Below are positions 10,047 through 15,896 of a stretch of 56,981 bases of DNA, piece after piece; the stretch's first letter is position 1, and every line of letters begins with the position of its first letter. Made by a program: the position numbers and the translations under genes. Source of the DNA: Fusicatenibacter sp. (GTDB lineage: Bacteria > Bacillota > Clostridia > Lachnospirales > Lachnospiraceae); contig JALEOU010000025.1 of NCBI GenBank assembly GCA_022766945.1, positions 1 through 56,981 of the forward strand. Reading direction: 5' to 3'. The notes beneath the pieces were generated by a model. The model was given only the letters and a program-made list of their open reading frames with translations. It was not told the origin of the DNA and searched no databases.

Positions 10047-11219
10047 TCAGAATTCATCTGCCATATACCAGAACACCGGCAGAGGGAACCAGTCAGATGG
10101 TATCCGGCTCCACGTTTCTTTTGCGATACCTGCATGATCTCCCGCTGCTGCGGTATAAGAAAGCAGCAGTTCCTGTGCCTGTTCTCTCGACAGCACCGGT
10201 GCATCCGGTGCTGCTTCTCTTTTCACCGTCACCTGTACGCCATCACTGTATACCGACACAGGCTGACCATCCATGACCGCGGAAAAAAAACCCTGCGAAA
10301 TACCTATAGTCTGCGCTTTCAGCGTCAGATACGCTTCCAGCACATTCGCAAAATCCATGATTCGTAACATGGCAGATCCGCAGCGACCCAGATTCCATTC
10401 CTCCGCAAAAGAGGACAGCGTACCAATTGTTTCCCGTTCATAGACAGGTACTGTGATCTGCAATTCCTGCAAATCCCGCCATCTCATATAGGCGGCCACC
10501 GCTGCCGCTCTGTCACTCTCATTCAGGAGTGCTGATTCTACCAGACCGGTCGGTCCTGCCATGAGAAAATAGCCGATCAGTTCCCCGTTTTTCTTGACCG
10601 CAAGAGCTTCCTCCCCAAAGGTTTTCATTACGTCCTCCACCGTTTCCGAGGAACGGATTACATGGAACGGTTTTGATTCATTCAATTTTACCGCAAGGGA
10701 AATTCCTCCCTCCCGGTTCCCGGAAGAAAACAGCGGTTCAAAAGTAATCCCCTCTCCAGCACTGCTGCCAAACGCATGCCGGAGATTCGGCCTGCATATT
10801 TCAAAAACAAACCGTATACTTCCCGGAGTAAAACCAAAATATCCGTATCTCTGGCGCTGTCCATCCAGAACCAGAAGGTCGCAGGCTCCTTCCAGTTCTT
10901 TCAGCCAATCACCAAGCAGATGTTTCATATGTCCTTCGCCTCTGGCCTTTGGATGTACACAAACTGTTCCCACATAACCTGCGCGAAGCATATGACCGCA
11001 CACGGCAAGTTCCTGGGGCAGGACGGCCACCATCGCACGCAGTTTTCCCTTTTCGTCCACTGCAACCCGATGAATGGAAGTCATTTGTTCCCCGGCCTGA
11101 TATACTTTCGGAAGTATTTTTTCAAAATCATGAGGACGGTGGGACGTACTGAACACATAATTTGCCAGTTCAATACAGTCTTCCCACTCCCCTGGCTGTG
11201 CTTTTCTGTATTCTGTCAT
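10047..11219 (-). CDS. Eis-like GNAT family N-acetyltransferase
   Basis: 390-residue protein with the three-part Eis layout: an N-terminal GNAT domain (acetyl-CoA loop near VHPKARGEGHMKHLL, residues about 92-106), a second degenerate GNAT region, and a C-terminal sterol-carrier-like domain. Eis enzymes acetylate amines on aminoglycosides or peptides; the substrate here is unknown. The ATG follows GAGAGGAGAACTTTCAA. It is separated from the HAD gene by 27 bases, so co-transcription is likely. Confidence 0.82.
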   Translation of the reverse strand: MTEYRKAQPGEWEDCIELANYVFSTSHRPHDFEKILPKVYQAGEQMTSIHRVAVDEKGKLRAMVAVLPQELAVCGHMLRAGYVGTVCVHPKARGEGHMKHLLGDWLKELEGACDLLVLDGQRQRYGYFGFTPGSIRFVFEICRPNLRHAFGSSAGEGITFEPLFSSGNREGGISLAVKLNESKPFHVIRSSETVEDVMKTFGEEALAVKKNGELIGYFLMAGPTGLVESALLNESDRAAAVAAYMRWRDLQELQITVPVYERETIGTLSSFAEEWNLGRCGSAMLRIMDFANVLEAYLTLKAQTIGISQGFFSAVMDGQPVSVYSDGVQVTVKREAAPDAPVLSREQAQELLLSYTAAAGDHAGIAKETWSRIPSDWFPLPVFWYMADEF

Positions 11220-11313
11220 TTGAAAGTTCTCCTCTCACATCTATCGGACTTTCGTTTATTGTAGCACAGTTTATTCACAAAAGATAGAAGAACCCTTCAC
11301 CAAAGTCCTTCCA

Positions 11314-13863
11314 TCATCGAATGGCAGTGACAGGGTAATCCTGCTTTTCCACAGCTTCTCTCAATACTTCATCTGTCACCGGAACTGACATGGTTACCAC
11401 CGCAGTCCCCTTTACATGGGAAACCTCTGCTGCTTCCACACCTTCCACCGCCTCAAGAGCTTTTTTCACTCTCGCTTCACAGTGAACACACATCATCCCT
11501 TCTACGGTAAGCGTTTTTACAAGTTCTTTTTTGTTTTCTGTCTGCATTTTCAGATCCTCCTTCGATATGATTGTTTTTCTTTTTTTATCTTTTGACGCAT
11601 CATGCATCCGAAACAGATTCAGACGCAGAGCGTTTGATACAACACAAAAGCTGGATAGGCTCATTGCGGCCGCTCCAAACATCGGATTCAGTTTCCATCC
11701 GAAAACAGGAATCCATACCCCTGCTGCAAGCGGAATTCCGATCACATTGTAGATAAATGCCCAGAACAGATTCTCATGAATATTTTTCAATGTCGCCCGG
11801 CTGAGACGAATCGCTGCCGGAACATCACTTAACCGACTTTTCATCAGAACTACATCCGCTGCATCAATAGCAATATCGGTGCCGGCCCCGATGGCAATTC
11901 CGATATCTGCACGCGTAAGTGCAGGAGCATCGTTGATGCCATCCCCCACCATAATCACCTTGCCCTTTTCCTTTAGCTGCCGAATGACCGCTTCCTTTCC
12001 GTCGGGCAGCACCTCGGCAATCACTTCATCCACACCGGCCTGGGCTCCGATGGCCCTGGCAGTGCGCTCATTGTCACCGGTAAGCATCACAACACGGATT
12101 CCCATTTGCTGCAGTTCTTTCACCGCTTTCGGACTATCCTCTTTTATCACATCCGCCACAGCAATCATTCCAAGAAGCAGACCGTCCTCACTGAAAAACA
12201 GCGGTGTTTTCCCCTCCAGGGCGCAGCGCTCTGCCAGCTCAGACATCGAATCCGGAATGCGTATTTTCCGGCTGATGAACGTACGGCTGCCTCCATAAAG
12301 CACCTTCCCGTCCAGCACCCCGGTAAGTCCATTGCCTGGAACCGCCTGAAATTCTGTAATTTCCCGCGGATTAATTTTACTCTCTGCCGCAAGAGCAAGA
12401 ATGGCTCTTGCAAGCGGATGTTCGCTTTTTTGTTCCAGAGCAAACGCAGCTTCCAGTAGTTTTTCTTCCGTACAATCCCGTCCCGGACAGATATCCGTCA
12501 CTTTCGGTTCTCCGCTTGTGATCGTTCCGGTTTTGTCCAGAACTACAATCTGCGCCTTTCCTGTTTCTTCCAGCGAAACTGCTGTTTTAAACAAGATACC
12601 GGACTTTGCTCCCATGCCATTTCCAACCATAATTGCCACAGGGGTGGCAAGTCCCAGCGCACACGGACAGCTGATTACCAGTACCGAAATTCCTCTTGCC
12701 AGCGCAAAGCCGACCGTCTGTCCGCACAGTAGCCATACAGCAATGGTAACCAGCGCAATCCCGATCACAGCAGGTACAAATATCCCCGATACCCGGTCCG
12801 CCACCTTGGCAATCGGTGCTTTGGTAGCCGCTGCATCGCTGACCATCTGAATCACTTTTGCCAGGGCAGTATCCTCTCCGACTCTTAACGCCTCACAGGT
12901 CACGAAACCTGACTGATTCAGTGTCGCAGCGGATACCGGATCTCCCGGTTCTTTATCCACCGGAATACTCTCTCCGGTCAGTGCTGCCTCATTCACCGCA
13001 CTGTTTCCTGCCAGAACAATACCATCCACAGGAATCTGTTCTCCCGGTCTCACCACAAACCGGTCACCAATGCGTACCTGCTCGATGCCCACTTCCACTT
13101 CTTTCCCGTTTCTGACCAGTACTGCCGTTTTGGGAGACAGCTTCATCAGACTCTTCAGGGCATCTGTAGTTTTTCCCTTTGATCTGGCTTCCAGCATCTT
13201 TCCCACCGTAATCAAAGTCAGAATCATCGCTGCCGATTCAAAGTAGAATTCATGCATGTAGCCCATCACAGCATCCATGTTGCCCTTCATCTGCGCATCC
13301 GTCATTGCAAAAAGCGCATAGACGCTGTAGACAAAGGACGCTCCGGATCCGAGCGCCACGAGTGTGTCCATGTTTGGTGCCCTGTGCCACAGACTTATGA
13401 AACCGCTGATAAAAAACTTTTGATTGACCACCATAATTGCCGCAGCAAGCAGCAGCTGAGCCAATCCCATGGCTATATGATTTCCTTCCAAAAACATCGG
13501 AAGGGGCCAGTTCCACATCATGTGCCCCATAGAAAGATACATCAATGGGATCAGAAGACAAAGAGAAACGATCAGCCGTCGTTTTACCACCGGCGTCTCT
13601 TTGTCCTGCAGCAGATCTTCATATTCCGCTGCCAGGTTTCTCCCTCCGGATTTCGCAGACTCTGTTCCCTTCAGAGAAGCTCCATATCCTGCTTCCTCCA
13701 CGGCAGCAATGACCTGTTCAGGGGCAGCGGTTCCTTCCACACCCATGGAATTTGTCAGCAGACTGACCGAGCAGGCAGTGACACCATCCACTTTTGAGAC
13801 TGCTTTTTCCACCCTTGCACTGCAGGCCGCACAGCTCATACCTGTCACCGTATATTGTACCAT
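11314..13863 (-). CDS. copA: copper-exporting P1B-type ATPase with C-terminal CopZ-like domain
   Basis: 849-residue copper-translocating ATPase. An N-terminal heavy-metal domain has CAAC at residues 11-14. The membrane metal site CPC is at 399-401, the actuator TGES at 296-299, the phosphorylated D443 in DKTGT, the HP motif at 482-483, and GDGINDAP at 640-647. Unusually, a second heavy-metal domain with CVHC at 792-795 is attached after the last transmembrane helix, joined by a lysine-rich linker. It looks like a fused CopZ chaperone. A strong internal ribosome site sits just before residue M773 (see the separate entry). CsoR-type operators precede the gene, so copper induction is expected. 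Confidence 0.95.
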   Translation of the reverse strand: MVQYTVTGMSCAACSARVEKAVSKVDGVTACSVSLLTNSMGVEGTAAPEQVIAAVEEAGYGASLKGTESAKSGGRNLAAEYEDLLQDKETPVVKRRLIVSLCLLIPLMYLSMGHMMWNWPLPMFLEGNHIAMGLAQLLLAAAIMVVNQKFFISGFISLWHRAPNMDTLVALGSGASFVYSVYALFAMTDAQMKGNMDAVMGYMHEFYFESAAMILTLITVGKMLEARSKGKTTDALKSLMKLSPKTAVLVRNGKEVEVGIEQVRIGDRFVVRPGEQIPVDGIVLAGNSAVNEAALTGESIPVDKEPGDPVSAATLNQSGFVTCEALRVGEDTALAKVIQMVSDAAATKAPIAKVADRVSGIFVPAVIGIALVTIAVWLLCGQTVGFALARGISVLVISCPCALGLATPVAIMVGNGMGAKSGILFKTAVSLEETGKAQIVVLDKTGTITSGEPKVTDICPGRDCTEEKLLEAAFALEQKSEHPLARAILALAAESKINPREITEFQAVPGNGLTGVLDGKVLYGGSRTFISRKIRIPDSMSELAERCALEGKTPLFFSEDGLLLGMIAVADVIKEDSPKAVKELQQMGIRVVMLTGDNERTARAIGAQAGVDEVIAEVLPDGKEAVIRQLKEKGKVIMVGDGINDAPALTRADIGIAIGAGTDIAIDAADVVLMKSRLSDVPAAIRLSRATLKNIHENLFWAFIYNVIGIPLAAGVWIPVFGWKLNPMFGAAAMSLSSFCVVSNALRLNLFRMHDASKDKKRKTIISKEDLKMQTENKKELVKTLTVEGMMCVHCEARVKKALEAVEGVEAAEVSHVKGTAVVTMSVPVTDEVLREAVEKQDYPVTAIR
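11545..11562 (-). promoter_or_regulatory. internal ribosome binding site and start for a CopZ-like product inside copA
   Basis: On the minus strand AAGGAGGA (11562-11555) lies 7 bases before an in-frame ATG (11547-11545), codon 773 of copA. Initiation here would give a free 77-residue copper chaperone (11547 to 11314) with CVHC about 20 residues in, the usual CopZ length and layout. The sequence of the site is plain; its use is inferred. Confidence 0.55.
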
Positions 13864-13890
13864 GTTACCATTCCTTTCTTTCTAACTTTA

Positions 13891-13946
13891 AATACCCCAC
13901 AGGGGTATTCTGTAAACAGAATATACCCTTCCGGGGTATTTTGCAA
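13891..13946 (-). promoter_or_regulatory. copA promoter region with two CsoR-type operators
   Basis: AATACCCC-ACA-GGGGTATT (13891-13909) is a perfect 8-base inverted repeat, and ATACCC-TTCCG-GGGTAT (13923-13939) is a second one. Both match the TACCC-N-GGGTA pattern of CsoR copper-sensor sites. Their centres are 31 bases apart, about three helical turns. On the minus strand TTGCAA (13946-13941) and TATATT downstream of it could be the promoter, putting one operator between the boxes. No csoR gene is in the window. Confidence 0.7.
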
Positions 13947-14003
13947 GTCTTTTTTATAAATTTTCTGCACAGCGTTCGTTGCCGTCTGAACAGTAACCTG
14001 GAA

Positions 14004-15896
14004 TCAGCCGAAAGACTTTTTCATCTGTTCTCTGTGATACTGAAGCGTGTACAGCTGATAATATTTTCCGCGTTTTGCCAGCAGCTCCTGATGATTGCCC
14101 TGTTCCACAATTTTTCCATGGGAAAGGACAATAATGTTGTCCGCATGCTGAATCGTGGACAACCGATGTGCCACAATCAGCATTGTTCCGATATTCTTCA
14201 TCCGTTCAAGGGAATCCTGAATCAGAATCTCTGTCTCCGTGTCAATATTTGCTGTCGCCTCATCGAGAATCATGACCGAAGGTTTATGCAAAATCGTCCT
14301 CGCAAAGGAAAGCAGCTGACGCTGCCCTGCGGAAAAATTATTCCCTCGTTCCCGCACAGGTTCATCCAGTCCTCCTTCCAGCTGGCAAATGAAATGATCG
14401 GCATTCACATAACGGCAGGCTTCCATAATCTGCTCATCGGTAATTCCATCCTCCCGCAGAACAAGATTGCTGCGGATCGTTCCCGAAAACAGAAAGACAT
14501 CCTGAAGCATCTGTCCGAAATGCCGCCTTAAAGATGCAATCTTAATCTTCCTGATGTCGATTCCATCGATCAGAATTTCACCTTTCTGGAATTCATAATT
14601 CCTGCAGATCAGGGACAGAATTGTCGTTTTTCCGGATCCGGTCGGACCCACAAAAGCTGCCGTTTCCCCGGGATTCACGTGAAAAGAGACACCTTTGAGT
14701 ACCCATTCATCCGGAACATACTGGAACCAGACATCCCGGAATTCAATTTCTCCCCTGATCTCTTCCAGTTCAACGGCATCCTTTTCATCCACCAGTTTTG
14801 GCTCGATGTCCATAATGGAAAATACTTTTTCGGCTGACGCGAACGCAGACTGAAGCCAGTTGAACTGCTCTGCCAGATTCTGTATGGGATTAAAGAACTT
14901 GGAAAGGTACATATAAAACGTAACAATTGTTCCGCTTGTAATCGTCTGACCCAGGAACACCGTATGTTCCATTGTCCCTTTTCCTCCCAGATACATAAGA
15001 CACAGTACAGAACTGATATAAAGCATATAAACCAGTGGGCGGAAAATACCAAACACAAAAATCTGCTCCTGCATCGCTTTTCCAAGGGAATTACTCTTGG
15101 AAACAAATTCCTGCTGTTTAGCCTCCTCACGATTAAAAATCTGCGTCACTTTGATTCCGGAAAGATTTTCTGACAGATACGTATTGATATCCGTAGTCCG
15201 GTCTTTCACCCTGCGGTGAGCTCTTCTGGAAAATTTCCGGAAAATAACAGAAAACAATACAATAAACGGCACAAAGCAAAGTACCATCAGCGTCAGTTCA
15301 TAATTCAGGGAAATCATCGCTGCCAAAATTCCAATGATCACAAAAAAATTCTTTGTCAAATTAACAAGCAGATTGGTAAACATCATGGAAATCGCATTCG
15401 TATCATTGGTAATCCTGGTTACCAGCTTTCCGACCGGAATCTCATTGAGCTGTTCGTGAGAAAGAGCTTCAATATGAACAAACAGGTCCTCCCTCATACC
15501 GGAAATAATTTTCTGACCCGTTTTCTGCAGAATGATGGCCTGAAAATAGGTACAGACCATAGAGAAAATCAGAATCGAAGCATACAGTCCCACCATCAGG
15601 TACAGACGTTTCAATGGAAAATCCCCGACAATCAGATCTTCAATCTTGCCCACAAGCATTGGGGAAATAACGTCGTAGGCGATGGAAAACATCATCAGAA
15701 ACCCCACTGTCAGAAATTGTTTCCCATAGGGTTTCGCATAATACATCAGGCGGGAAAGAATTTCTCCATCCTTCATATTTCGGTCAAAACCGACTGCCTC
15801 CGCTTTATCTTTCACAAAGGACCATGCGAAAATCAGAACAGCCGCAACTGTTCCGATCATGGCACCCACTACCAAAAGAGGATAATAATTATGCAT
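14004..15896 (-). CDS. ABC exporter subunit, catalytic half (permease-ATPase)
   Basis: 630-residue half-transporter: an N-terminal helix, six transmembrane segments (about residues 60-350), then a nucleotide-binding domain with Walker A GPTGSGKTT, signature FSAGQ, Walker B VMILDE with the catalytic glutamate present, and the switch histidine in IVAHRLS. It pairs with the upstream gene, whose Walker B lacks the glutamate, to form a heterodimeric multidrug-type exporter. I place the start at 15896: AGGAGGGAAGAGC precedes this ATG, which overlaps the upstream stop by 8 bases. A longer reading to 16013 would run inside the upstream gene. Confidence 0.9.
   Translation of the reverse strand: MHNYYPLLVVGAMIGTVAAVLIFAWSFVKDKAEAVGFDRNMKDGEILSRLMYYAKPYGKQFLTVGFLMMFSIAYDVISPMLVGKIEDLIVGDFPLKRLYLMVGLYASILIFSMVCTYFQAIILQKTGQKIISGMREDLFVHIEALSHEQLNEIPVGKLVTRITNDTNAISMMFTNLLVNLTKNFFVIIGILAAMISLNYELTLMVLCFVPFIVLFSVIFRKFSRRAHRRVKDRTTDINTYLSENLSGIKVTQIFNREEAKQQEFVSKSNSLGKAMQEQIFVFGIFRPLVYMLYISSVLCLMYLGGKGTMEHTVFLGQTITSGTIVTFYMYLSKFFNPIQNLAEQFNWLQSAFASAEKVFSIMDIEPKLVDEKDAVELEEIRGEIEFRDVWFQYVPDEWVLKGVSFHVNPGETAAFVGPTGSGKTTILSLICRNYEFQKGEILIDGIDIRKIKIASLRRHFGQMLQDVFLFSGTIRSNLVLREDGITDEQIMEACRYVNADHFICQLEGGLDEPVRERGNNFSAGQRQLLSFARTILHKPSVMILDEATANIDTETEILIQDSLERMKNIGTMLIVAHRLSTIQHADNIIVLSHGKIVEQGNHQELLAKRGKYYQLYTLQYHREQMKKSFG

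Follow-up and report, generated by a model that had tools for sequence, protein, structure and literature searches.

A conserved internal ribosome site and in-frame start codon in the copA genes of Clostridia point to a free CopZ-like chaperone

The window analysed here is a stretch of 56,981 nucleotides from contig JALEOU010000025.1 of Fusicatenibacter sp. It carries a copA gene on the minus strand, a single frame of 849 amino acids running from ATG to TGA. Its features, and those immediately around it, are listed below.

11314..13863, minus strand: copA, a P1B-type copper ATPase with an HMA domain at both ends (TIGR01511, Pfam)
13684..13854, minus strand: N-terminal HMA with GMSCAAC (PF00403, 61.4 bits)
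11548..11619, minus strand: linker, residues 749-772, after the last NALRL of the ATPase; charged, A-rich and variable among relatives
11555..11562, minus strand: internal Shine-Dalgarno (SD) sequence AAGGAGGA, -11.7 kcal/mol with the anti-SD, conserved in relatives
11545..11547, minus strand: internal in-frame start ATG (M773), with equivalents in relatives
11314..11547, minus strand: predicted free CopZ-like chaperone of 77 aa (MQTENKKELVKTLTVEGMMCVHC...), from HMA and CopZ models and solved chains
11344..11514, minus strand: C-terminal HMA with GMMCVHC (PF00403, 58.2 bits)
11283..11315, minus strand: terminator-like stem-loop at the copA/copZ stop, from a consensus scan only
13892..13908, no strand assigned: palindrome ATACCCCTGTGGGGTAT upstream of copA, a candidate CsoR operator
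13923..13939, no strand assigned: second palindrome ATACCCCGGAAGGGTAT upstream of copA

The encoded protein is a copper P1B-1 ATPase (CopA) by both profile and motifs. In a profile search it matches TIGR01511 with 585.5 bits, above the curated cut-off of 397, and the DKTGT, CPC and GDGIND motifs are present. Pfam finds E1-E2_ATPase, Hydrolase and two HMA stretches, and both HMA domains exceed the Pfam cut-off. The linker of the window gene contains a run of seven A residues (11580-11586, minus strand), and runs of at least seven precede the internal start in 61 of the 197 fused linkers discussed below; slippage at such a run could truncate the CopA tail. A consensus scan of positions 11000-14300 found no internal promoter on the copA strand.

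The initial annotation had described an ATPase ending in an extra heavy-metal domain with CVHC, and a ribosome site 7 bases before an in-frame ATG that would release 77 residues; the sequence agrees on both counts. The ATG at 11547-11545 is codon 773 of the CopA frame, and 7 nt (TCTGAAA) separate it from AAGGAGGA. Among the 34 internal ATGs of copA it has the best anti-SD duplex energy, the runner-up reaching -6.2 kcal/mol, and the gene's own start, at -5.6 kcal/mol, is weaker. Counting both strands, the window has 2279 ATGs, of which only 8, M773 included, reach -11.7 kcal/mol. The site stands out against shuffled linker codons (p ~0.0025) and is not unusual when codons are resampled with the peptide kept (p ~0.08). 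Taken alone, the window gene is only suggestive of an internal start, and it is the relatives that carry the argument. No 16S tail bearing the anti-SD turned up in the source draft assembly.

The 77-residue product has the architecture of a CopZ, which is about 70 residues long with one HMA and MxCxxC near the N-terminus. Its HMA, with GMMCVHC, scores 58.7 bits against PF00403, and it aligns along almost all of the CopZ models and of solved CopZ chains such as 6ff2. With the NCBIfam CopZ equivalog NF047957 it scores 56.1 bits, below the cut-off of 85, and the product is therefore termed CopZ-like rather than a certified CopZ.

Relatives were sampled in four sets. The genome_contigs set holds the best 80 loci of a scan, and the genus set covers seven genomes. 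For the family, 90 genomes were searched, one per genus, and 79 of them supplied 80 regions among the matches listed. The class set has 69 loci from 147 genomes. A CopA frame was obtained from 234 of 236 loci. The C-terminal HMA is present in 198 of these frames (197 unique, mostly from Clostridia) and absent in 36. The genome_contigs set, being the best 80, and the class loci, chosen for long matches, are biased towards fused genes; the 78 readable loci of the family set divide into 58 fused and 20 unfused. The counts exclude L001, L003 and L004 (window repeats or no CopA), L105 and L169 (no readable frame) and L143 (linker and tail identical to L064). Loci L240 and above lie outside the CopA samples and are also excluded, and L266-L269 and L271 were read separately. 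Only exact duplicates were removed, so near-identical loci remain in the counts. A site was called strong where an in-frame ATG no more than 18 codons before the HMA motif has an SD of -7 kcal/mol or lower, and weak between -5 and -7.

The site and its start codon are conserved across these relatives. Among the 197 unique fused frames, 175 have a strong site, 15 a weak one and 7 lack the combination of ATG and site. The background is far lower: -7 is reached by 135 of 4619 ATGs in the ATPase part of the same genes, by 3 of 240 out-of-frame linker ATGs, and by 8 of 211 other in-frame linker ATGs. The genome_contigs set (best 80) holds 77 strong, 2 weak and 1 without; the family set (n=80) 48 strong, 7 weak, 2 without, 20 unfused and 3 unreadable or duplicate; the class set (n=69) 47 strong, 5 weak, 2 without and 15 unfused; and the seven loci of the genus 3 strong, 1 weak, 2 without and 1 truncated. 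Of the 35 family codes represented in the class set, 24 include one or more strong sites, 2 have weak sites only, 8 have no fused frame, and one (f46) has a GTG case together with unfused frames. Ruminococcus albus 7 (-12.2 kcal/mol) and Subdoligranulum variabile (-11.1) have strong internal SDs, and Roseburia sp. 831b (-6.2) and Butyrivibrio fibrisolvens D1 (-5.6) weak ones. The initial annotation had named relatives that keep the linker without the ribosome site as evidence against a second product; in 190 of the 197 the ATG is retained along with a strong or weak site, and one more has the site with a GTG.

The geometry of the signal is also maintained. The linkers of relatives range from 14 to 208 residues, and the gap from AAGGAGG to the start is 7 or 8 nt in 164 of 189 sites. 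In the window gene and in the nearest complete frame of the same genus (L005), the HMA motif comes 16 and 14 codons after the start rather than 8, and the SD moves along with the start. At one locus (L181), a GTG replaces the internal ATG behind AAGGAGG, a natural swap of start codons. Where two C-terminal HMAs stand in tandem (L144, L161), the signal is found solely before the last, and a second N-terminal HMA is preceded by it in none of 11 CopAs. In 59 of 60 sampled genes, the start window is less structured than more than three quarters of the gene's 50-nt windows (on average 1% are as unstructured), a property due in part to the A-rich linkers. Across the 171 of 197 frames that allowed a comparison, an SD reaching -7 is found at 157 internal starts versus 131 of the genes' own starts, even though the own start was taken as the ATG with the best SD near the N-terminal HMA, which favours it. 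SD and start codon are thus conserved above chance, as in a gene with in-frame internal initiation.

We consider it very probable, from these sequence comparisons, that copA gives rise to both a pump and a free CopZ-like chaperone from one mRNA and one reading frame by internal initiation. Ribosomes starting at copA's own ATG would make the copper ATPase with its tethered C-terminal CopZ-like domain. Other ribosomes would bind AAGGAGGA within the linker codons and start at in-frame codon 773, producing the last 77 residues alone as a free cytosolic CopZ. Both products would terminate at the same stop. Use of the site by ribosomes, stability of the product, and its delivery of Cu(I) to CopA or to a regulator are what we infer from the biology of CopZ.

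One alternative is that selection acts on a charged KEExxM peptide in the linker, before the HMA domain, and that the SD arises incidentally from the codons of this peptide. The SD lies mainly in the register AAG GAG GAN (Lys-Glu-Glu/Asp), and KE-rich peptides often yield SD-like RNA. When each peptide is recoded synonymously, the null mean is already -6.7 kcal/mol, compared with an observed mean of -9.8, and gene by gene the null is beaten at p <=0.05 in only 10 of 129 genes, because Lys and Glu codons readily give weak SDs. The pooled tests, not the single-gene tests, decide in favour of conservation at the RNA level. The observed energy lies below the null mean in 117 of the 129 genes. In the SD zone, 93 of 123 Lys-Glu pairs are written AAGGAG, versus 1 of 46 in the rest of the linkers (Fisher p ~1e-19). 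With strict cores, the three registers account for 137, 26 and 1 of 164 sites, and the second register, for example AAA GGA GAT or GAA GGA GAG, encodes other peptides. Since the SD sits in differing codon registers, the peptide varies while the RNA signal persists; the GTG of L181 likewise puts Val in place of Met. Selection on the peptide is accordingly a very unlikely source of the signal.

We give an equally low probability to the view that SD and ATG are idle relics of an ancestral separate copZ. A small HMA frame does lie close downstream of 14 of the 36 unfused copA genes, and a few lineages lack the signal. However, SD, spacing and start persist in linkers that differ greatly in both length and sequence. 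On a tree of the ATPase cores (233 rows, FastTree), the register of the SD has changed at least 20 times with strict cores (22 with looser ones) and the position of the start at least 14 times, while the signal persisted. Internal SD-like sequences have also been proposed to affect elongation, and the site does separate the membrane domain from the last soluble domain, where a slowed ribosome might let the membrane part fold before the last domain, with no initiation involved. Such pausing requires no start codon at 7-8 nt, whereas the ATG with at least a weak SD is kept in all but seven of the fused frames, one of which has the GTG; nor would pausing explain why, in tandem HMAs, only the last is preceded by the signal. 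It appears slightly less probable still than the other two.

The exceptions to internal initiation are few. The seven fused frames without ATG and SD are L057, L142, L146, L191, L181 with its GTG, and the same-genus loci L008 and L010. The last two are CopAs of another type (54-56% identical) with a C-terminal HMA and no site. A third same-genus locus (L009) has a weak site only, and a fourth (L007) passes on energy with 13 nt between GGAGG and ATG. These four loci (L007-L010, in genomes G004, G001, G006 and G002) share the other CopA type, whose linkers are long and lack an evident internal start; this suggests a replacement of copA within the genus.

A genome without the internal start might be expected to encode a separate CopZ; the initial annotation had proposed comparing relatives for separate copZ genes, and three of six genomes without the start have a CopZ-like one. 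A separate CopZ-like gene lies directly downstream of copA in the L057 genome, directly upstream in the L191 genome and elsewhere (L240) in the L142 genome, and in the L146 genome the sole candidate is a small HMA of a different type, at 57 bits. Across 64 genomes, with that of L181 counted as having a start, separate HMA frames shorter than 110 aa and scoring at least 60 bits occur in 3 of 6 genomes without the start versus 3 of 58 with it (p 0.009). The 60-bit limit was picked after the table had been inspected; at 80 bits the counts are 2 of 6 versus 1 of 58, and at 57 bits 4 of 6 versus 6 of 58. Half of the start-less genomes thus conform, while those of L008 and L010 (G001 and G002) have no separate CopZ-like frame in the 64-genome listing of HMA frames, so the rule is not strict.

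The three separate frames in genomes with a start differ in kind. Two (G015, G058) belong to the other small HMA type, with GMMCxMCEAHVN, as does the 57-bit frame of the L146 genome. The third, in G047, resembles a piece of a second fused copA. This CopZ-like frame of 83 aa (L277) has a site of its own, sits next to a contig end and much resembles the tail of that genome's fused copA; it is perhaps a broken or split second copy. Two longer frames were rejected as free CopZ: the G056 frame forms the end of another fused copA, itself equipped with an internal site, and that of G084 is membrane-anchored. The broader idea that genomes with the signal lack every free HMA protein was also rejected, since many have small HMAs of other types or membrane-anchored HMAs of about 130 aa. 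The latter (L241, L242, L243, L244, L246, L249, L256) have a membrane helix at the N-terminus and also contain a CopZ-like HMA and a Cys-rich stretch, which includes CCGG in most of them; they are possibly membrane-anchored copper chaperones. The second small HMA type (GMMCGMCEAHVNDAV and similar) occurs at L254, L274, L275 and L276, and at L170 (3270-3540) directly downstream of a fused copA.

The unfused relatives suggest how the fused gene arose. In 14 of the 36 unfused copA frames, a small HMA frame with its own ATG starts 8-178 nt downstream, and in 5 further ones it lies at 306-347 nt. The simplest account of these neighbours may be that a nearby copZ was joined in frame to copA and kept its own ribosome site. 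Upstream of copA, ATACCC-N5-GGGTAT occurs twice. The 3.19 Mb assembly has only one further copy, about 130 nt upstream of a match to a CsoR-family gene, so that control of copA by CsoR in response to copper is a fair inference for the source genome. The palindrome was rejected as a general mark of fused copA; of the 195 fused frames whose upstream sequence was long enough, only 9 are preceded by the looser form TACCC-N3..7-GGGTA.

A pump and a chaperone from one gene are known from E. coli. There, CopA(Z) is the released N-terminal HMA of CopA, and Meydan and Drees, both in 2017, reportedly showed it to arise by programmed frameshifting. Three papers describe a pump and a free HMA chaperone made from copA by frameshifting (PMC7558416, PMC9548414, PMC10187127), and the E. 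coli frameshift involves a slippery site and a pseudoknot. The clostridial genes would likewise give both products from one copper-ATPase gene. Unlike E. coli copA, which uses a frameshift and its N-terminal HMA, they would use a second start in the zero frame and the C-terminal HMA; the proposed product is therefore not filed under the frameshifted CopA(Z) of the E. coli type. The idea of the initial annotation that internal initiation in a fused gene could do the work of the E. coli frameshift gains support from the conserved site and start.

Other arrangements share single elements with this one. An HMA at the C-terminus of the pump is also found in Archaeoglobus CopA, which has a C-terminal metal-binding domain, and we know of no internal start in CopAs of that type. 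Neighbouring copA and copZ genes (L230, L132, L237, and annotated Staphylococcus plasmids) encode a pump and then a small CopZ with a ribosome site and start codon of its own; unlike these, the fused genes have no stop between the two, and the chaperone domain is also made as the tail of the pump. In-frame internal starts that give the C-terminal part of a protein as a separate product are reported for Cas11b (PMC11899642) and for clpA. These belong to other gene families with other functions, and neither product is a metal chaperone. Internal initiation in copA was not reported in any title or opening of an abstract that the search covered, most subscription papers being beyond its reach. An internal start in copA thus appears to be the new element, while a pump plus chaperone from one gene, and in-frame internal starts elsewhere, are known.

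In summary, the reading frame, the internal ribosome site and the conservation of both are features of the sequence across many relatives. It seems somewhat more likely than not that many families of Clostridia keep the in-frame internal start of copA as their main source of free CopZ, in convergence with the E. coli frameshift, with the strength of the site setting the ratio of pump to chaperone and each pump carrying a tethered CopZ. If true, conserved internal starts would form a widespread family for which current gene calling would list the long protein alone; the PLSDB gene table, itself incomplete, gives only the long CDS at this locus in Roseburia sp. 831b, Ruminococcus albus 7 and Butyrivibrio fibrisolvens D1. 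The production of a pump and a chaperone from one gene would then have evolved at least twice by unrelated decoding tricks, and the value of a fixed pump-to-chaperone ratio would become testable. A basic protein of copper homeostasis would also be absent from the annotation of many anaerobes.
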